Shown here one piece after another: positions 3,496 to 59,575 of a stretch of 64,000 bases of DNA. The DNA is from Lucinisca nassula (Eukaryota; Mollusca; Bivalvia; Lucinida; Lucinidae), in assembly GCA_963580285.1 (NCBI GenBank), contig OY757017.1:111819245-111883244 (forward strand), in the 5' to 3' direction. How positions within the stretch are numbered: the stretch's first letter is position 1; every line of letters begins with the position of its first letter. A program made the position numbers and the translations under genes. Below the pieces are notes generated by a model. That model saw only the letters and a program-made list of their open reading frames with translations. It was not told the origin of the DNA and ran no database searches.

Positions 3496-4017
3496 CCACT
3501 TTGCTTTTCACGGGGCTTCCACTTAAATTGGAGATCGGGTTGGATGCCCGATGAGTTTTTTTTTATTTGATTATTTTGATAGGGAGCCACGAATATTTGA
3601 ACCTATAATATATATATTTATATATTTATCATATATTATAACGTTACTAAATAGAAAATCTATATGTCCATTTAAGAAGAATGGAAGATACATTTGAAAA
3701 TTCCCCTCTTTTATTTCAATGTATAAGTCTAATTGCATTGCAGCATGCTTTCGAGCAGGCTCTTTTTTCTACATTTCTGCTCTTTTGATCATCTATAGGC
3801 TTTTTTATTATCCGAAATAATTCCACACCGCTAAAATACTTTTTAAATTAATTTCAATAAGAACATGATACCTAATTATCCTTATTAATTTGATGGAAAT
3901 CTGGATTGATAGGTGGATGGGGCCGTAAAAAAAATCATTCCTCGGTTTCGCCAATCATGGTGATGATGGGGGATAATCTTATATTTGTTAACATATTCAT
4001 ATATTAATTTATTTTTT

Positions 4018-4325
4018 GGCATCGGTAGCTAAGTCGGATGCGCGTCTGACTGGTGATCAGGAGGACGCAGGTTCGATACCTACCGGGGTCGGCAAACTTT
4101 CTTTCGTGGAGAATGATTATGAAACCTTTTTTTGTCGGTCATTCTCTCCCTTCTGCTGTTTCAAGAAGGGCAGTTGTCACTTTCTGGCGAAAAACAGGTG
4201 CACTGTATTGGTTAACCGCTTACGTATAAGCCGCCCAGGATAAGTATGGATAGGTAAACTGCCCGGCTCGAAAACCAACTAAAACAATGTTGACAGGGCC
4301 GTTAAACTCCAATACAAACACACAA
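4018..4325 (+). mobile_element. tRNA-derived SINE (SINE-B), full length
   Basis: The head at 4018-4095 is tRNA-like: an A-box region GGTAGCTAAGTCGGATGC and a B-box GGTTCGATACC. The body is about 200 bp (conserved GAAGGGCAGTTGTCACTTTC, then TGCACTGTATTGGTTAACCG). The tail is GTTGACAGGGCCGTTAAACT then CCAATACAAACA. The tail closely resembles that of SINE-A although head and body differ. Confidence 0.85.
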
Positions 4326-9806: not shown

Positions 9807-12712
9807 AACTCATCTGAGGTTTTATGCCTGTTCTCGTTTACTGAAAGTTTCATAAAATATCAGATTAGAAACGGCTGAGAAAAGTTGGTGACACTATTTT
9901 TCACTAATATTTATGCTCAAGGGCATGTAACTCCCAAACTGTGTGCCCATGCATCCCAAATATGGACTCGACGTAAACTGTAAACCCCTCCTGGTTATCT
10001 GCAAGATTGATGACGATCGGATCAGAAATGGCTGAGAAAAAGTGGAGACGTCGTTTTCCCCGTTATAAGTCTACGGGAAAATTTGTCACGCTCAAGGGGA
10101 TGTAGGGATGTAACTGGAAAACCGCTGGTCAGATTCAAACCAAATTCGAACTCGTCCGAGTTTTTATCGATGTCTCATGCGGTCCAAATTCGAACTAAAC
10201 ATTGACTGTAAGCTCCTTCTGGTTATCTGGAAGTTTGATGAAGGTCATGTTAGAAATAGCCAAGCAAAGTTGGAGACATCGTTTTCCCATTGTAAGTCTA
10301 TGGGAAAATTTTTCACCCTCATCGGGATGTAACTGGAAATCCGGTGGTCAGATTCAAGCCAAAATCGAACTCATTAGAGATGTTATGCTTATTCCAATTG
10401 ACCAAAAGTGACAAAAAAAGATGAGATCAAAAACGGTTGCGGAAAGCTGGATACACCATTTTTCGCTAATATTTATGCCCAAGGGCAGGTAACTCAGAAG
10501 TCATTTGACCTGCGTGACCCAAATTCAAACTCAACATAGACTGTATGCCCCTCCTGGTTATCTGCATGGAGACGTCGTTATCCCATTGTTAGTTTATGGG
10601 AAACTCTTTCACACTCAAGATGTTACTGGAAATTAAAACCACTGGTCAGATTCAAGTCAACTTTGAACTCGCTTGAAATTTTATGCTTGTCCTCTTTACC
10701 AAAAGTTACAAAATGAACCAATCATAAACGGCTGAGAAAAGCTGGAGACACCATTTTTTACTTACATTTATGCTCAAGGGCATGCAACTCAGAAGCTGTT
10801 TGTCCCGTGCAGCCTACATTTGAACTCAACGTAGACTGTAAACCCCTCCTGGTTATCTGCAAGTCCAATGAAGATCGGATTAGAAATGGCGGAGAAAAAG
10901 TGGAGACGTCGTTTTCCCCATTAAGTCTATTGGAAAACTTTTTTCACGCTCAAGGGGATGTAACTGAAAAAAGGGGATGTAACTGAAAAAAAAAACCCGC
11001 TCGTCAGATTCGTGCCAAATTCGAACACGTCCAAGATTTTATGCTTGTTCTCGTGTATGACGTTACAAAAAGATCAGATCATAAACGACTGAGAAAAGCT
11101 GGAGACACCATTTTTCACTTATATTTATGCTCAAGGGCAGGTAACTCCAAAACTGTTTGTCCCATGCATCCCAAATATGAACTCGACGTAAACTGTAAGC
11201 CCTTCCTGGTTATCTGCAAGTTTGATGACGATCGGATCAGAAATGGCTGAGAAAAAGTGGAGACGTCGTTTTCCCCATTAAAAGTTATTGGAACATTTTT
11301 CAAAACTGGTCCAAAACCTAATGCAGTCAATCCCCCAACCCAGTGATACTGCACATAAAATTTGATTGGGATTGGCCAGCTAGTCACTTAGATATTCAAG
11401 TTCAAAGGTGTGGACGATTGACGGACGACGGATGGATGGACGGACGACGGATGCCTACCTATACTATAACCTCACCTAGTGTGCCTTCGGCTCAGGTGAG
11501 ACAAAAAGATCAGATCATAAACTACTGAGAAAAGCTGGAGACACCATTTTTCACTTATATTTATGCTCAAGGACAGGTAACACCAAAGCTGTTTGTCCCG
11601 TGCAGCCCATATTCGAACTCGACGTAGACTGTAAGCCCTTCCTGGTTATCTGCGAGTTTGATGAAGATCGGATTTCAAAATTCATCCATAAATAAGAAAG
11701 TTATTGACTTCGTATAAGTTTCGGATGGACGGACGGACAGTGGCAACGCTATATGTCCTCCCACCATTCTTCGAAAGGCGGGGGCATAAAAAGTAGGGCT
11801 TACGGGGGGTTTTCGTATTTTTTCATATTTTTGCTCCTCTTCGTGAAGCAATCTGATCTGGGTCCACACTGTTTACTGTTTGCCAAAATAAAATGTATTT
11901 TTAAACAAAGTTTGTAAGAAGCTGCAGCAGAGTGAATAAATAGGCAACAATTTCCAATTTAGGTTTTCTTGGTATCTTTAGGTCAAAGGGTTTGACACCG
12001 GAAATGTCGGATTTGCAGGCGTTGCCGTTACTTTTATATATTCATTATATATTTATAAAATGGATGATTTCTTTTTTTTTTCTATTTGTGACATTTTTTT
12101 TTCTAAGTTTTACCTGTGACTTTATTTCCATTAGCCTTTTCCTGTGCCATTCTTTCCGCCCACCCCAAGAAGGGACATTTCCTGCCCGATATTTACGAGG
12201 AGATTAAAACCAGAAAACTTGAGTAGACAGGAAAATTAAAACAACAACAAGAACAGAATGGAAGTTAAAACATCATTGTATCTTTGTGCTCACTCATGCA
12301 TTTCCTTTGGCTAAATGCTTTAGCCAAAACAAATTTATCAGGTTTATGAAAAAAAAAAAGCAAAAACAAGAAACATTTTACATTGTAATATATAGTTTAA
12401 TGCATTGTCTGCGTCGCGTGTTCGAGACGTTCGGACGAGTCTTGTCTCCGCATGACCTTAGCTGTTGGTGGGACGTAAAACTCAAAATGCACAAAAGGTC
12501 GATTGATAGGAAATAATTAACGCGTGGCACGTTTGTGGTAGAGTGTCAAAAGCTCAGCCACGCTCGTTATAAACACGATTACGAAACTGACACCTGCTTT
12601 ATCGACGATAATCATCACTAATCAGCCTGAACACAGCAATGTCTACATTCGCTATGCGCCTTATTGATAGTTTTTTTATTTTTTATTATTTTTTTTTTTT
12701 ACTGTACTGAGA

Positions 12713-15179: not shown

Positions 15180-15517
15180 CTATAGATTTTTGTTTTGTTT
15201 GTTTGATTTGAGGTTTAACGCCCCCGTCAACACTGTAAAGGTCATTTTGGAGACGTTGCGTCCAATTTTGTGGTACTTTTACCCGACATTGAGATGAAAT
15301 GAAACCCATAATGTTTCTAAGCATGGACGGTCCGACTCGCCTGGGTAGGCTTAGATCCTCTAAGCCGCTTACCAGTACTCGTGTTTTGCTTTGCCTGGGC
15401 AGGCTTAGATCCTCTAAGCGGTTTACCAGTACTCGTTTGCGGGTCGGTTTCAGCTCTGCGTGGAAGCATCATGCAGCCCATCTATTTCGTCATGCCCGAT
15501 GGGCTCGGGCAGGATTA
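15180..15517 (-). mobile_element. SINE-A in left palindrome arm
   Basis: It reads TTTGTTTGATTTGAGG (tail inverted), continues through the duplicated GGCAGGCTTAGATCCTCTAAGC segment, and ends at GATGGGCTCGGGCAGG. It pairs with 17637-17940 in the right arm, where the internal duplication is missing. A second tail-only fragment lies at about 14985-15040. Confidence 0.8.
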
Positions 15518-15544
15518 ATTTTTGTGATACAAAAGTATTCGCAG

Positions 15545-15625
15545 GCCTCGATAGCTCAGTCGGATGCACGTCTGACTGGTGATCAGGAGGACGCGGGTTT
15601 GATACCGAAAGTTTCGGTGAGATTG
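15545..15625 (+). mobile_element. SINE-B head fragment (left arm)
   Basis: A tRNA-like head CCTCGATAGCTCAGTCGG..ACGCGGGTTTGATACC with a B-box one base off consensus; the body is truncated after about 40 bp. It is the counterpart of 17535-17620 and 7535-7645. A functional tRNA is ruled out because no 3' acceptor half can pair. Confidence 0.65.
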
Positions 15626-16491
15626 ATCATGAAATCTATAGCGGATAGCCAACAGGACAGTTACTTTCCCACAAAATTGCGTGGTGCGGCTAAATATGTG
15701 GCTCAACTGCAATTGCTTCAAATTCTTAGCGTAGCGTATACCAAGCCAAAACCTGTACGAAAAGAAACGCACTAAAACGGCAATACGTTTAAAAACGTAA
15801 AAAGCAGTAGAGCGCGTTAATACGCATAACCTTCGGTTTCCTACGCCTCAATATATTTGCTACGTTTTATTCTACGTTTTATTACGTTTCAGTGGGTTTT
15901 GTAGTTATTGCTTGGCATCGCTTCCCTACAAAGCGGCGCAAAATTAATGTACATGTAGTAAAGCATAGCCCTCACTACGTGACAGTGAGACTGGGGCTTT
16001 ACTCCGAACTACGTAATGTATAGGCATACACACGTTTACGAGATTCGCTAGTGTATGGCACTAGAGAAGGCGAATAAGGATTTTTTTTGTATTTTTCGCG
16101 AACGTAATGTTTGTGGGGCGACATATATAAAGGGTATTGTGGGGCTTTATATATTATGTATAATATATATATACCTCATATCTGGGTTGGTATTGTGGGG
16201 CTCTATATATGTTTAATATATATGCCTCATATCTGGGTTAACATTTTCTACCACTTAACTACGTTTAAGATGTATAGATATCGAGATCAACGATATCGGG
16301 CATGCGTAATGGAACTAAACCAAACACATAAAACGAAGGATTTACTTCTTCGTGAACACTATGTTTGTGGGGCGACATATATAAATTGCAATGTGGGGCT
16401 TTATATATATATAGTATATATGCCTCATACCTCGGTTAAAATTTTGCGCCACTTATCTCGGTTTAGACACGACCACCCCATATCATGACCA

Positions 16492-16613
<122 letters not shown>

Positions 16614-17534
16614 TGGTCATGATATGGGGTGGTCGTGTCTAAACCGAGATAAGTGGCGCAAAATTTTAACCGAGATAAGAGGCATATATACTATATATAT
16701 ATAAAGCCCCACAATGCAATTTATATATGTCGCCCCACAAACATAATGTTCACGAAAATGTAAATCCTTCGTTTTATGTGTTTTGTTTAGTTCCATTACG
16801 CAAGCCAGATATCGTTGATCTCTATATCTATACATTTTTTACCTAGTTAAGTGGTAGAAAATGTTAACCCAGATATGAGGCATATATATATTAAACATAT
16901 ATAGAGCCCCACAATACCAACCCAGATATGAGGTATGTATATATTATACATATATAAAGCCCCACAATACCCTTTATATATGTCGCCCCACAAACATTAC
17001 GTTCATGAAAAATTCAAAAAAAATCCTTGTTTTTATTCGTCTTCTCTAGTGCCATACATCCGCGAATTTCGTAAACGTGTATGCCTCTACGTTACGGAGT
17101 AAAGCCTCAGTCTCACCGCTACGTAGTGAGGGCTATGCTTTACTACATGTACATTAATTTTGCGCCGTTTTGTAGGGAAGCGATACCAAGCAATAACTCC
17201 AAAAAAAAAAAAAAAAAAAAAAAAACCTGAAACGTAATAAAACGTAGCAAATATATTAAGGCGTAGGAAACCGATTGTTATGCGTATTATCGCGCTATAC
17301 TGCTTTTTACGTTTTTATACGTATTGACGTTTTAGTGCGTTTCTTTTCGTACGGGTTTTTGCAAGGTATACGCTACGCTAAGAATTTTAAAGCAAACGCA
17401 GTTGGGTTACATATTTAGCCATATACATGTATAACCGTGTGCACTACGCTCGAAATAGCAATTTTGTGGGAAAGTTACTGTCCTGTTGGCTATCCGCTAG
17501 ATTTCATGATAAATCTTACCGAAAGAATGTTGCC

Positions 17535-17620
17535 GACCCCAGCAGGTATCGAACCCGCGTCCTCCTGATCAGCAGTCAGACGTGCGTACCACTGAGCTAT
17601 AGAGGCCGGCGAATACTTTT
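17535..17620 (-). mobile_element. SINE-B head fragment (right arm)
   Basis: The minus strand reads CCTCTATAGCTCAGTGG and then GGGTTCGATACC. It mirrors 15545-15625. Confidence 0.65.
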
Positions 17621-17636
17621 GTATCACAAAAATTAA

Positions 17637-17940
17637 TCCTGCCCGCGCCCATCAGGCCTGACGAAATAGATGGGCTGCATGATGCTTCAAAGCAGAGCTG
17701 AAACCGACCCGTAAACGAGTACTGGTAAGCGGCTTAGATAATCTAAGCCTGCCCAGGCAATGCGATGCGAGTCGGACCGTCCATGCTTAGACACATTATG
17801 GGTTTCATTGGGTGGCACGGCTTGAGATGTCATTTCATCTCAATGTCGGGTAAAAGTCCCACAAAATTGGACGCAATGTCTCCAAAATGACCTTTACAGT
17901 GTTGACGGGGACGTTAAACCTCAGATCAAACAAACAAAAT
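17637..17940 (+). mobile_element. SINE-A in right palindrome arm
   Basis: Full-length copy from GCCCGCGCCCATCAGGCC to the CAAACAAACAAAA tail. It is the partner of 15180-15517. A tail-only fragment at about 18260-18300 mirrors the one at 14985-15040. Confidence 0.8.
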
Positions 17941-20195: not shown

Positions 20196-21242
20196 TAAAA
20201 AAAAATGAACAAAATAATAAAAAAAAAAAAATACCCATAAGGCGCATCGCGAATGTAGACCTTGCTGTGTTCAGGCTGATTAGTGATGATTATCGTCGAT
20301 AAAGCAGGTGTCAGTTTCGTAATCGTGTGTATAACGAGCGTTGCTGAGGTTTTGACACTCTACCGCAAACGTGTCATGCTATAATTCTTTCCTATCAATC
20401 GACCTTTTGTGTATTTTGAGTTTTACGTCCCATCAACAACTAAGGTCATACGGAGACAAGACTATTCCGAACGTCTCGAACACGCGACGCAGACAATGAC
20501 CTTTGTACTAAGGCATTGAACTGTATATAACAATGCAAAATGCTTCTTGTTTTTTTTTTTTTTGTTTTTTTCATAAACCTGATGCATTTGTTTTGGCTAA
20601 AGCATTTATCCAAAGCAAATACATGAGTGAGCACACACATTCAATGATGTTTTAACTTTCATTCTGTTCTTACTGATTTTGTTTTATTGTTTTAATTTTC
20701 TTGTCTTCTTTTCTGGTTTTAATCCTCGTAAATATCGGACAGGAAATGTCCCTTCTTGTGTCGGGGTTGGCGATGCTGTTCGGTAAGAAAGGCACTGGAA
20801 AAGGCTAATGGAAATAAAGTCACAGATAAAACTTAAAAAAAAGTCACAAATAGAAAAAATAGAAATCATCCATTTTCAAAATATATAATGAGTAAATAAA
20901 AGTAACGTCAACACCTGCAAACCCGACATTTACCGGTGTCAAACCCTTTGGCCTAAAGATACCAAGAAAACCTGAATTGGAAATTGTTGCCTATTTATCA
21001 CTGTTTATTCACTCTGCTGCATCTTCTTACAAACTTTTTTAAAAATACTTTTTTTTTGGCAAACAGTAAACAGTGTAGACCCAGATCAGATTGCTTCACG
21101 AAGAGGAGCAAAATATAAAAAAATACGAATACCCCCTGTAAGCCCTACTTTTTATGCCCCCGCCTTTCGAAAAATGGTGGAAGGGCATATAGCATTGCCA
21201 CTGTCCGTCAGTCCGTTCGTCCGTCCGAAACTTAAAAAGGCA

Positions 21243-23118: not shown

Positions 23119-23791
23119 TGAGATACTATGTTTTGAGCAGAAATAAGAACGAAGTATGTTAACCTAGTGCGAGTATCGCAGGCGACGATATTTTGACACA
23201 GACGTTTAAACTACGAGGGTAGGCTGAAAAGTTCTGAGCCTGACCAAGAAGCAGGCATCGAACAGCCATGAAATTTTGTATTCATTAAATCCAAACCTTT
23301 ATTACTTGATTTGACTCAAATGAGTTTAAGTTTACCTGCAATAACGTAGAAATTCTAGACTTTGAAAATTGATACTAGCATGTTTTTGAGGAAATGGACA
23401 AAATCTGGCATCGTGGTGTCATCAAGTACCTCCATAAAAATGGGTTAGCTCCTAAGGGCATTCATGCCGATATGGTTGCTACATTAGGGGATGATGCTCC
23501 TTCGTATGCAACCGTGAAAAGGTTGGCAGCAAATTTTAAGATGGCAAGGACAGCCTTGAAGATGATGACTGGTGTGGACGACCCACAACGGCAACAACTG
23601 AGGAAACCATCAGACAAGTGCACAGGGCCGTGATGGATGACAGGCGTTTAACTGTGAATCAGTTAGCTAACACTGTTGGCATCTCCCGTGAACGAGTAGA
23701 GAACATTCTACACAGTGAATTAGGAATGTCGAAGGTTTCCGCCAGATGGGTGCCACGGCTTTTGACGCCTGACCAAAAGTTGGCCAGACTT

Positions 23792-24217
23792 AATTTTTTC
23801 ATTGCTCTTAAAGGAATACATTTTTGATTTTTATTTGCCTTCACTGCAGCTGGTGTTGTGCCGTGTGGCGGCCGTAAAACGTCTCCCCGTACATCAACCA
23901 TAGTGCAGTTTATATTTTACTTTTGGTCCTTTGAGATCAGCGTGAATATTCTGAGAAATCAGAAATAAATTATTGGTTTAGACTCATATTCTAGACAGGT
24001 TATTTTTTATGCCCCCGCCATTCGATTTATATCAGTTTTTAAATCGACTGCCTATTCGAAATTCGCAAAATTGCAGTATGTTTCCCCTGGCTTTCTTTGC
24101 CGGATCATTACAGGGTCACTGATGAGGCTTTATTAGCCGAAACTACGAAGTATGACCCATCTTCTTTCTTATGAATTTTTTCATTGCTCTTAAAGGAACA
24201 CATTTTTTATTTTTATT
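23792..24217 (+). mobile_element. Hammerhead-bearing retroelement, family 2, 382-bp monomer
   Basis: 44-bp direct repeats at 23792-23835 and 24174-24217 (start AATTTTTTCATTGCTCTTAA; two mismatches) set a 382-bp monomer. The element is one monomer plus 44 bp. Excising it rejoins the transposase frame as ..LARLN-LSQANLAIFEADQ, so it is foreign to the mariner. The junction offers TTAA or AA as target duplication. A ribozyme motif lies just before the 3' direct repeat. There is no ORF. Size and layout match metazoan retrozymes; membership is inference. Confidence 0.82.
24113..24158 (+). ncRNA. Hammerhead ribozyme, family 2, canonical core
   Basis: All hammerhead elements are present in order. 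Stem I GGGTCA (24113-24118); core CTGATGA (24119-24125); stem II GGCT-TTATT-AGCC (24126-24138); core GAAA (24139-24142); stem III C-TACGAA-G plus the A-T pair; cleavage triplet GTA (24150-24152); stem I return TGACCC (24153-24158). Both stems I and II are fully complementary. This is a minimal type I ribozyme with a very short stem III, the form reported for Penelope-like elements. Cleavage is predicted after A24152. Confidence 0.88.
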
Positions 24218-25049
24218 AACCTGTCACAAGCCAACTTGGCTATTTTTGAAGCAGACCAAGATGGTTTTCTTGACCGTTTTGTCACTCAGGATGAGTGTTG
24301 GGTTCATCACTTTGAGCCACAGACAAAAAGACAATCCATGCAATGGAAGCACCCTTGCTCACCCCCTCCAAGGAAGGCAAAGGTCGTCTCCTCTGCAGGA
24401 AAGGTGATGGCATCAGTGTTCTTGGATGCCAAGGGCATAATATTCATAGATTTCTTTCAAAAGGGCAGAACAATTGATGGGGAGTATTATGCAGATCTAC
24501 TAAAACAATTGCGAAAAGCAATTAAGGCTAAACGACACGGAAAATTGACATAAGGGGTCTTGTTTCATCAGGACAATGCGCCTGCTCATAAATCGGTTGT
24601 CGCAATGGCTGCTGCGCATGACTGTGGCTTCACACTTGTCGATCACCCTCCGTATTCACCTGATCTAGCTCCATCAGATTATTTCCTGTTTCCAAACATG
24701 AAAAAGCACTTGGCTTGGCAGCATTATCGGTCAGGCGAGGAGTTGATAGCTTCTGTGGAGGAGTTTTTCAGGGACCAAGATGAGACCTTCTATACAACTG
24801 GGATCCAAGGACTCCAGCATCGCTGGAGGAAGTGTGTGGACAGGAAGGGAGACTATGTTGAAAAATAAGGCACTTTCAGCATGGACAAACCATTGGATCT
24901 TGGTCAGGCTCAGAACTTTTCAGCCTACCCTCGTATCAAGTACCAAGTCCGTGTAATAACTTCTCTTGTAGACCCCACTTCATATGAAAACTAGGTCTCA
25001 CACAGATGCATTTTTTCATTATTTAATTCGATAACACAAACGTATGTTA

Positions 25050-28050: not shown

Positions 28051-28314
28051 GATTGACTGCGCTTTCTTGAAGTCTTCAACTTCTTCAAAAAGGTTTGATC
28101 ACATGATAATGAATACCTTGTTTGGTTTGGTTTGGAATGCATTCGAGGCTGCCAGTTTATCCAATGTTGAAGTTTTATTTTAGAAATAAAGGTAATGGTT
28201 GATTTGTAAACACTCGTACAGTAACACCAAACCAAATTGCACATGACTCTTTTCTATAGTATGTGTTCAACAACCGATCAGTCTCATACGGAACCCTGGA
28301 AGGGACAAGCAATT
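28051..28314. other. Intergenic, no gene seen
   Basis: No domain-bearing frame and no repeat match recognised within the window. Confidence 0.45.
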
Positions 28315-28875
28315 TATTTAATAATCTTGTTTGCACAACATAGATCTTGTGTGGACAACATAAAATATTGTGCACACAACTTATTATCTTGTTCGCACAA
28401 GATATTATCTTGTAATCACACGTTATTATCTTGTTCGCCTATTATCTTGTTTTCACAACATAGATCTTGTGCAAAAAACATATCTAGTGCGTTCAAGAAA
28501 TTATCTTGTTCGCACAACTTAATATCTTGTGTGGACAACATACTATCGCACAAGATATTATCTTGTGCTCACAAGTTATTAAATTGTTCGCATATTATCT
28601 TGTTTGCACAACATAGATCTTGTGCAAACAACATAATATCTCGTGCGTACAAGATATTGTCTTGTTCGCACAAGTTAGTTAGCACAATTTAATCAGGCGC
28701 ATAAGATACTATGTTGTCCGCACAAGATCTATGTTGTGTAAACAAGATAATATACTGTGCGAACAAGATAGTATAATGTGCGCACATGATATTTAGTTGT
28801 GCGAATAACATATTATCTTGTGGGCACAAGATAATATCTTGTTCGCACAACTTAATATCGTGTTCGCTAAACATA
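28315..28875. repeat. Palindromic minisatellite, TATCTTGTNCGCACAAGATA
   Basis: About 560 bp is built from dozens of imperfect copies of a 20-30 bp self-complementary motif (ATTATCTTGTTCGCACAAG and its variants), in both orientations. The frames rich in CAHN/LSCSH repeats are translations of it. Confidence 0.9.
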
Positions 28876-29117
28876 ATAAAAGAAATACATGTCTCTTCCC
28901 AGGTTACGTAGTCTGAGGTACTAGTCCATACATATAATTGGAAACTTAAATACAATAAAATTTGACAAAACAAAAAAGAGGAAAATGAGCAATAAGTGTA
29001 AGACTTAAGTAGTTGCCCAATATTCGCATCAATATCTAGAAAAAAAATATATAGCTTGGATCACCTTGGCAAAATAGCCTCTAACCCTTATCCTGCGGAA
29101 AATGACAACCTCTATCT

Positions 29118-35329: not shown

Positions 35330-35980
35330 AGAAATGCGTCCATAGGACACAGATACCCCCGCCTGAAGTATGTCTATGTTCGTATTCATCCATAGAAAGT
35401 TATACACCGTGTTTAAGTTTTGGACCCTTTGTATGCCATTTGACCTCTAAGTATGACCTTGACCTTGGAGGTACGGATCTGGGTTTGCATGTGACACATC
35501 GTCTCATGATGGTTAACATTTCTTCAAAATAATTTCAAATCCATCCAGAAATAAGTAAGTTATTGGCTGGGTTTAAGTTTCGGACCCTTTTTTGACCTTT
35601 GACCTCTAAGTATGACCTTGACCTTGGAGGTACAGACCTTGGTTTTGCATGTGACACATCGTCTCATGATGGTTAACATTTCTACAAAGTAATTTCAAAA
35701 TCCATCCAGAAATAAGAAAGTTAATGACTGCGTTTAAGTTTCGGACCCTTTTTTTGACCTTTGACCTCTAAGTATGACCTTGACCTTGGAGGTACGGACC
35801 TGCGTTTGCACGTGAAACATCGTCTCATGATGGTTAACATTTCTGCAGAGTAATTTTAAAATCCATCAAGAAATAAAGAAGTTATTGACCGCGTTTTAGT
35901 TTCGGACGCACGGACGCACGGACGAACGGACAGGGGCAACGCAAATGCCCTTTCCACCATTCTTCGAATGGCGGGGGCAT
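35330..35980 (+). repeat. Tandem array, four units of about 160 bp
   Basis: Each unit carries GTTTAAGTTTCGGACCCTTT, TGACCTCTAAGTATGACCTT, GGAGGTACGGACCTGNGTTT and CATCGTCTCATGATGGTTAA. It terminates in ACGGACGCACGGACGAACGG and GAATGGCGGGGGCATAA, the same end as near 11780. Confidence 0.85.
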
Positions 35981-36350
35981 AATAAAAATAATGTAAATAC
36001 AAGCAAGGAATTTCATTTTACATTGTATAGACAGGGGTCATTTAACTCTTATCATGCTGTTCACGACAACCCCTATCTTTGAAAACAGTGTAGATCCAGA
36101 TCAAGGTCTATACTGTTTGGCATTCAATTTGTGAATTTGTAGCAATTAATTACATCAAGTAATTTGATTGGTTGATAGACAGAAATGGGTGTGGCTTAAA
36201 TGAATATTCAGCAAGATAAGGGTTAATTTGCATGTGATCCAATGCTAGTCATACATACATGCAAAAGGAGTAATTAATTACCATAAATAGTCATTTGTTA
36301 TGTAATCTATATACTGTTTGTTTTTTCTTTTGTTTAAATAACAAGGTATC
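35981..36350. other. Intergenic with a short H2 hairpin
   Basis: 36085-36125 is a shortened H2 copy (AACAGTGTAGATCCAGATCA against GGTCTATACTGTTTGGC). No gene is seen. Confidence 0.5.
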
Positions 36351-39775: not shown

Positions 39776-40183
39776 GAAGCATTGTGGGCATTTGTTAGAA
39801 TCGCCTCGATGAGACGATTCTAACAAGTACCAACAACATGTGTTTCTGAAGAAAATTAAGGGAAATTATCCTTTAATTATTCTTGACAAATTGCAACATG
39901 TGCCCACAACATGTGTTTCTGAAGAAAATTAAGGGAAATTATCCTTTAATTATTCTTGATAAATTGCAACATGTGCCCACAACATGTGTTTCTGAAGAAA
40001 ATTAAGGGAAATTATCCTTTAATTATTCTTGACAAATTGCAACATGTGCCCACAACATGTGTTACTGAAGAAAATTAAGGGAAATTATCCTTTAATTATT
40101 CTTGACAAATTGCAACATGTGCCCACAACATGTGTTTCTGAAGAAAATTAAGGGAAATTATCCTTTAATTATTCTTGACAAAT
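39776..40183. repeat. Five 73-bp tandem units after a hairpin stub
   Basis: 39776-39835 is a diverged H1 palindrome. Starting inside its right arm, the sequence TGTTTCTGAAGAAAATTAAG..GACAAATTGCAACATG recurs with an exact 73-bp period (anchors at 39841, 39914, 39987, 40060, 40133). Units are nearly identical, so the expansion is recent. Confidence 0.93.
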
Positions 40184-41235
40184 TCCATCAACTTGAATCA
40201 TGTTAGAACAACTAGGCTAAATATTTGAAAAGCTAGATCATTACTTCACTGAATGAATAAAGGCATCATTGCATTTCCTTTGCAAGTCCTCAATAAAACT
40301 TTCTCCCGAACTTTCTAATGCAACCCCCTTATTTTTATATTTTTCTAGTTTATTTTACAGCCTTTCACTTATTTCTAGCCGTTCGTTAATTGATGGTAGA
40401 CAGAAACCAGCATACCTGAAGAGAAAAGCATCATACCTTCCTATGCAGAACTTGGCATGTCATATGACACTGGAGCAAGCGGTGTGAAATGCAACGCCCT
40501 ATTCTCTTTTAAATGAATAAATAACAAATAAATACCAATACCACAAAAGTACTAAATTTAATTATGATATACCATTTATCCTATAATTGAGTAAGAAATT
40601 ACAAAAGCCGGCAAGGTGCAGCTTTTTATTTGCATCATTGTTTGCATTACAAACAACCAAGAAAAGGAAGAAGATGATGATTGATGATGATGAGGATGAT
40701 GATGAGGATGATGATGTTGAAAGAATTTGCTACCTAAAGCCATACTATGGAGTGATTCTTTGCAAAAATTGTAACTCTAGACTCCGCGAAACACAACATT
40801 ATTCTTTATCAATAATCAAGTTTTCAGCAGGAGAGGACTGATTAGAAATGATTAATTTTCTGCTTTGTTTTCTCCTGCAATTTACTGCCTCATTGAGGCA
40901 GTTCTCACGAGCACCTGCAAAGCAATTTTAAACTTGAAATGTTTTCCGAGGAAAACAATGTCCCCACACCATAATATATATCTTAAACACCCATTTGACT
41001 TTAAATAACTACGTTAAGGTCACCAAAATGTAAGCTGCAAAAAACTAATAGTTTTCGCAAGCCTGTGACCATAAAAAAGCAGTCTTTAAAAAGCTCAGAT
41101 CACCAGAATCTAATCAAATTTGGTAGACTGTAATTAAATATTGTGCCAATTTTGACCAACATTCATCAATTCTTAAATGATATTTACAGATAAGCCCTTT
41201 TTTTTAGTCAAGTCACGAGTAAATGCACTATATAC
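40184..41235. other. Intergenic, no gene seen
   Basis: It contains a GATGATGAGGATGATGATGA simple stretch at about 40676-40712 and a small H1 relic at about 40888-40922. The frame across the GAT repeat gives an acidic run only. Confidence 0.5.
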
Positions 41236-58912: not shown

Positions 58913-59159
58913 GGCGAAGACATTTGGACAATATAGCTACTGGAGATGAGAGATACGATAAGAAGTTTGATAAGTTGCCATAAAATGGGTCAAAAGCCAT
59001 TTGAGTCATTCATGCAGGAAAGACTCATACCCATAGCTAGTTAGGCAGTCCAAAGAACAGTCTTATGAGCCTTTGCCTGGGTCAAAACTCCAGACTATGA
59101 GAGATATCAGGTCAATGGCACAGGTGTCTGGGGAAACCAGTCTGAGGAACTGACTGCCA

Positions 59160-59575
59160 CCGGTGAAAAGATATATGCTTTCTATACATCAATTCATTCA
59201 TTCAAGGTCTTGTCTTTCAAAAATGCTCATGATCACGCGAGTTTGTTTACAGATGAAGAATGTATGGTGTCTACCAATAAGTCGGATTTCCTTGAAAAAC
59301 TAGAAAGACTTGCTGGTTGTATAGTATTTGACGGGATGTCTGTACTTAAAATGTTGCAGCATTCATCATGTCTCAAACTGACATATCAACAGATGGTTGC
59401 TATGTTTTGGTCTTACAGTCTTTTTACCATTATTTGGGTAGCTACCATTCACGTCGGTTTTGACAGGAATGAGGAAAACAGTCTCAAATCACAGACCCAA
59501 CAAAAGTGTGGAAAGAATGTTTCTTCACACGTGCCTGTGTCTACGAGGAAAAATATAGTAACTGGTGATTGATAG
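59160..59575 (+). pseudogene. Uncharacterised gene relic, N-terminal part
   Basis: An open frame of 120 codons (59210-59572) contains CIVFDGMSVLKMLQ, a stretch of about 40 residues, then VGFDRNEENSLKSQTQQK. I associate a DGM..(V/F)FDRY..NSLK arrangement with uncharacterised mollusc and cnidarian proteins that later carry a VSSDTDVLVLL-like segment and a CDTTS-like motif; that association is from memory. The matching later segments lie downstream at 61275-61720 in the same orientation, after two insertions. Confidence 0.5.

Follow-up and report, generated by a model that had tools for sequence, protein, structure and literature searches.

The non-LTR retrozymes of metazoans are described in the available text of PMC7229834 as 150-450 bp repeats with a GC content below 45% that carry type I hammerheads, have no LTR, PBS or PPT, and are expressed as circles, with RNAs of 170-400 nt. 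The mussel units measure 350-390 bp, with most loop-loop contacts absent, and their RNA was found to be mostly circular. Flanking duplications, when present, are longer than 4 bp in the same source, and duplications of 15 bp were reported for Nematostella retrozyme copies (PMC4918200, in the part available). The authors of PMC7229834 proposed a model in which a primed circular RNA yields tandem cDNA and called Penelope-like elements a strong candidate for the mobilisation of retrozymes; as far as the available text goes, the enzyme that moves animal retrozymes was left open.

Among Penelope-like elements, the closest described system is PAc (Poseidon of Anolis), for which the available portions of PMC11167929 report DNA cutting at AT-rich sites. 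Reverse transcription of PAc begins most often 111-118 nt into its ORF and the hammerhead cut lies at 26, which, by our own subtraction of these published numbers, places the start 85-92 nt past the cut. In vitro, unprocessed RNA was the main substrate, and ribozyme mutants inserted equally well.

In the 64-kb stretch of DNA analysed here (the window), we confirmed the observation of a hammerhead-bearing insert in a mariner element. The features of the locus are as follows.

23212-24935, plus strand: dead mariner element with a transposase of the SETMAR/Mos1 kind, recognised from its TIRs, Pfam and relatives
23792-24217, plus strand: probable retrozyme insert of 426 bp, made of a 382-bp unit and 44 bp
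23792-23835, plus strand: first copy of the 44-bp overlap, without the hammerhead
24174-24217, plus strand: second copy of the 44-bp overlap, its 3' end being the putative start of reverse transcription
23790-23793: TTAA at the 5' junction
24216-24219: TTAA at the 3' junction
24113-24158, plus strand: type I hammerhead ribozyme, with a predicted cut between 24152 and 24153
24076-24113, plus strand: upstream stretch predicted from the circular MFE and pair probabilities to pair with, and block, the hammerhead core

The terminal inverted repeats of the mariner (23212-23249 and 24898-24935) are 38 bp long and 100% identical, and Pfam Transposase_1 was recognised on 24218-24553 (E 3e-21). Among the matches listed, relatives were 76-77% identical over the entire 300-aa query and one was 82% identical over 78% of the query; the solved structures matching the transposase include SETMAR and Mos1, and the element is putatively of the DD34D type. 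Besides the insert, a frameshift at about 23537-23560 and an in-frame stop at 24551-24553 were found, and the mariner is thus dead even apart from the insert. The preliminary description had claimed that the mariner frame rejoins once the insert is removed. This proved correct: codon CTT, ending at 23791, and AAC, at 24218, join to restore R-L-N-L-S-Q. Since the length of the insert is divisible by three, an open frame alone is weak evidence; more weight rests on the alignment across the joint. No gap was found at the joint in 15/15 aligned relatives, which were picked from the best 120 of 2454 found, two of them being gapped elsewhere and one incomplete at its end. No codon was therefore gained or lost at the target. 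This alignment supports an insertion into a pre-existing mariner, with the empty site resolved. As the mariner is a gene of known sequence, both junctions can be read to the base, bar a 4-bp ambiguity.

The 44-bp direct repeats with a 382-bp period that had been claimed were also found, with 42/44 positions identical (BLAST E 7e-15), the insert corresponding to 1.12 units. If identical at insertion, the two copies have diverged by 4.5%, with a 95% interval (0.6 to 15%) too wide to date the insertion. TTAA is present at both junctions and only once in the joined empty site, and the flanking duplication is thus 0-4 bp long; if all 4 bp of TTAA were duplicated, the element itself would account for 23794-24215. 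The repeat starts with AATT and finishes with TATT, without TG..CA, and no primer site adjoins it: past the first repeat, a TGG is not met until offset 15 (plus strand) or 14 (minus strand). Inspection by eye showed that the stretch before the right repeat, in plus orientation, is pyrimidine-rich and not purine-rich. The ends of the insert are not inverted, also by eye, and the DNA-transposon reading was rejected on this ground. On the plus strand, each reading frame of the insert contains stops, and a search for ORFs of at least 110 aa found none inside it. The GC content of the 382-bp unit is 38%, a weak piece of evidence given that the window as a whole has 39%.

A blastn search (word 7) detected no second copy of the unit in the 64-kb window. 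The other window matches to the insert with E below 0.01 were three, of 25-28 bp, around TATGCCCCCGCC(A/T)TTCGA: a short stretch at 24000-24025 is common to 35964-35991, 11771-11795, and 21146-21170, and its 18-base core, TATGCCCCCGCCATTCGA, is identical at 35964-35991 and one base off at 11771-11795 and 21146-21170. The copies of this dispersed repeat run on into GAAGAATGGTGG or GAAAAATGGTGG, whereas the retrozyme unit does not. Having this stretch in common with a dispersed repeat, the unit is possibly of chimeric origin.

Read in order, 24113-24158 consists of GGGTCA / CTGATGA / GGCT-TTATT-AGCC / GAAA / CT-ACGA-AG / TA / TGACCC. Every core letter of the hammerhead is present. Stem I has six pairs and stem II four, stem III has two pairs plus the A-U core pair and is capped by a tetraloop, and the triplet GTA occupies 24150-24152. 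The canonical core (CTGATGA/GAAA with GTA), the perfect six-pair stem I, and the 4-bp stem II of the preliminary description were therefore all recovered, with all three stems intact. A structural descriptor scan of both strands of the whole window gave this segment as its sole match, and in dinucleotide shuffles (n=200) the loose descriptor matched once and the strict one never, leading us to reject a chance match as the source of the hammerhead. The looser pattern CTGANGA...GAAA matched 24 times in the window against 5.27 expected, a number reached in 0/100 shuffles. Many of these matches lie in repeat arrays and the stems are formed by the one at 24119 only, so that the core letters alone are no evidence for a hammerhead. 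One such array, at 39822-40184, consists of five tandem 73-bp units (97% matches) carrying the letters CTGAAGA...GAAA, and the descriptor scan gave no match in it.

The preliminary description had made the ribozyme depend in part on a covariance-model hit, and in this respect the result went against it, no Rfam hammerhead reaching the gathering score. The sole match at gathering level in the whole window was a tRNA elsewhere. When 601 nt were searched, Hammerhead_3 scored 17.5 bits (E 0.73; gathering 48.5), and the HtrA thermometer scored 16.2 bits, below threshold, on the opposite strand of the same segment. When 56 nt were searched, Hammerhead_3 rose to 20.9 bits (E 0.0075), still sub-gathering, followed by RAGATH-1-hammerhead with 17.0 bits (E 0.37) and by three other, still weaker, RNA families. 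We did not take the sub-gathering score as refuting, because the best-matching model is that of a type III hammerhead, whose open helix is placed differently, and because only the best match of each clan is reported, which could hide a weaker type I match. The Rfam outcome nevertheless still stands against an easy assignment.

The folding of the ribozyme was predicted in several contexts. The MFE structure of 24105-24165 (61 nt) is the hammerhead fold, although its stability is not exceptional (z -1.27; 26/200 shuffles equally stable). Stem I has a pair probability of 0.94 in this context, with 0.63 for its last pair, and stem III of about 0.3, a value also obtained with 46 nt. In the whole insert, the probability falls to 0.33-0.34 for 5/6 pairs of stem I and to about 0.1 for stem III, that of stem II being at least 0.95; for stem I, it is 0.17 in the context 24070-24217 and 0.02 in an RNA ending at 24158. 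The MFE of the 382-nt circle, in which the ribozyme is blocked by pairing of the letters of 24076-24084 and 24105-24113 with the hammerhead core, is -82.1 kcal/mol, compared with -81.5 when the hammerhead is forced. From these low stem I probabilities in long contexts and from the circle MFE, the hammerhead is predicted to face competition from a blocked form. In the available text of PMC7229834, ribozyme blocking is described for plant retrozymes, some mussel circles being the exception among animal ones. The circle shows no more than moderate folding (z -1.9; 8/200 shuffles at least as stable), with a paired fraction of 60% versus 57% in shuffles, lower than the self-pairing 'above 70%' given in the part of PMC4918200 available.

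In agreement with the retrozyme assignment made earlier, the ribozyme type, unit size, GC content, and absent LTR signs fit the description of metazoan non-LTR retrozymes in the available text of PMC7229834. The locus has a canonical type I hammerhead, a unit of 382 bp with a GC content below 45%, no LTR, PBS or PPT, and no protein gene among ORFs of at least 110 aa. With the retrozymes of Mytilus galloprovincialis in particular, it has in common a type I hammerhead with a short stem III, a similar unit size (382 versus 350-390 bp), low GC, and the lack of LTR ends and of a primer site. This likeness is one of description, not of letters, and here 1.12 units with one ribozyme are present. A flanking duplication longer than 4 bp was not found (0-4 bp here), a difference that the 'when present' of the same source makes not strictly defining. 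The 'minimal type I' form to which the hammerhead had been assigned did not hold up: that form is the Penelope/Terminon one, and stem III here, with two pairs and a tetraloop, is of the canonical invertebrate form. We conclude that the element fits a non-autonomous metazoan non-LTR retrozyme, a kind already known from animal genomes.

The plant LTR retrozymes resemble this locus in their hammerhead and in the circular RNA, which is presumed here, and like them this locus may be flanked by a 4-bp duplication; however, according to the available parts of PMC4918200 and PMC7761336, they have a type III hammerhead, LTRs of about 350 bp, a PBS and a PPT, with repeats 600-1000 bp apart. A hammerhead pattern of 31 positions had 0 matches in a viral contig collection, as had a 20-base pattern from the unit, and a looser hammerhead pattern had 0 matches in viral contigs and in prokaryote genome contigs; as the collections scanned were viral and prokaryotic, these zeros say little. 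The literature search returned no publication recognisable as being about this locus.

The insert is continuous across the predicted cut (24152/24153) and longer than one unit. Counting 24153 as +1, the overlap that opens the insert begins at +22, and the last position of the insert is +65, in U-rich sequence 65 nt past the predicted cut, after UUUUUUAUUUUUAUU. Because the cut is read through and the length exceeds one unit, the template was not one cleaved linear monomer, a candidate that we therefore ruled out. The clean insertion site points to an RNA template exceeding a single cut unit. The claim of reverse transcription over more than a unit length accordingly stood, with 382 + 44 bp and an unbroken cleavage point, and a retrozyme insertion from such a template is very probable. 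In contrast, the claim that a 382-nt RNA would arise by self-cleavage of transcripts from this locus was not upheld, since the insert has one hammerhead core on the plus strand and none on the minus strand. One ribozyme would make one cut and give two pieces, each still joined to mariner sequence. The 382-nt circle is thus the presumed parent molecule and not a product of this copy, which can itself give rise to no unit circles.

A circle in particular is a fairly probable template. It is rather unlikely, though far from negligible, that the template was instead a linear uncleaved multimer, or a pair of monomers copied in succession through a precise template jump. Any template longer than 426 nt would yield identical anatomy, PAc uses mainly unprocessed RNA in vitro and its insertion is unaffected by hammerhead mutations (PMC11167929, available portions), and folding predictions for long contexts leave the present ribozyme blocked for the most part; against this, mussel retrozyme RNA is chiefly circular in the available text of PMC7229834. 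The two differences in 44 positions do not discriminate, as mutation after insertion and two different units fit alike. An origin as a very small LTR-type element of the TRIM/SMART class, its LTRs being the 44-bp repeats and the hammerhead a coincidence, is extremely improbable. The LTRs of such elements have TG..CA ends, and this reading was rejected for lack of LTR-type ends: the repeat runs AATT...TATT without TG..CA, the nearest TGG (offset 15 plus, 14 minus) does not adjoin, and the tract before the right repeat is, by eye and in plus orientation, pyrimidine-rich instead of purine-rich, even though the terminal repeats are direct, a 4-bp flanking duplication is possible, and TRIMs are reported from bivalves in the available part of PMC10886601.

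The hammerhead could also derive from a truncated Penelope-like element instead of a retrozyme, type I hammerheads and partial tandem ends being reported in both classes (available parts of PMC7761336 and PMC11167929). This is very unlikely, as Penelope-like hammerheads are minimal, with a helix III usually devoid of non-conserved nucleotides (PMC7761336, in the part available). In addition, a gene for a reverse transcriptase and GIY-YIG endonuclease would not fit in a 382-bp period, and the insert has no ORF of 110 aa or more. It is likewise improbable that the motif has decayed to a relic unable to cleave, or matches by chance. The Rfam scores below gathering, the weak stem III, the predicted blocking, and the triplet GTA, GTC being commoner in hammerheads, all speak for this reading, but the core letters and all three stems are intact, the strict descriptor matched in 0/200 shuffles, and the motif sits in a 382-bp unit with an overlap.

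Returning to the retrozyme insertion, the junction geometry is reminiscent of Penelope-like elements that initiate internally, and by analogy we infer that the enzyme may have been Penelope-like. In the available portions of PMC11167929, PAc likewise has a hammerhead, a partial tandem end, an AT-rich target, and a 3' end past the ribozyme cut (85-92 nt, versus 65 nt here). It differs in encoding its own reverse transcriptase and endonuclease, in its smaller hammerhead, in its cut motif (most commonly ATT, versus TTAA here), and in its start (an AC-rich stem-loop, versus U-rich sequence here). Going by the literature, a multi-unit retrozyme locus elsewhere in the genome would be transcribed, and the 382-nt units released from this parent RNA by its hammerheads would be circularised by an RNA ligase of the host. 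The junctions would then be explained by a reverse transcriptase taken over from an autonomous retroelement, possibly a Penelope-like one. It would have cut the DNA at an AT-rich TTAA site, begun copying within the U-rich stretch 65 nt beyond the ribozyme cut, and synthesised cDNA over one lap of the circle and 44 nt before the other end was joined. A rolling-circle mechanism in which a Penelope-type enzyme copies the hammerhead circle, with a fixed U-rich start at +65, a lap plus 44 nt, and a TTAA target, is put forward tentatively and, taken as a whole, is somewhat doubtful. If true, the mover of animal retrozymes would be settled, and the 'tail' past the hammerhead would be a mobilisation signal common to retrozymes and Penelope-like elements. 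Junctions compared in this way over numerous copies would tell circle from multimer, and LINE-type from Penelope-type machinery.

Elsewhere, the window has the appearance of animal DNA and contains many dispersed and tandem repeats. An array of 21-bp-based units of the ATCTTGTTCGCACAAGAT type at 28287-28910 aligns with its reverse complement (about 68% matches), as does a large inverted repeat of 2.7 kb at 15193-17939 (84%). A 167-codon ORF at 59069-59572 has one protein relative, 49% identical over 73% (E up to 0.001). ARAGORN predicted a tRNA-Thr at 4017-4093 and a tRNA-Ser at 17532-17608, of which only the latter reaches the Rfam tRNA gathering score; tRNA-Thr-like sequences are present in some bivalve Helenus elements, according to the available part of PMC10886601.
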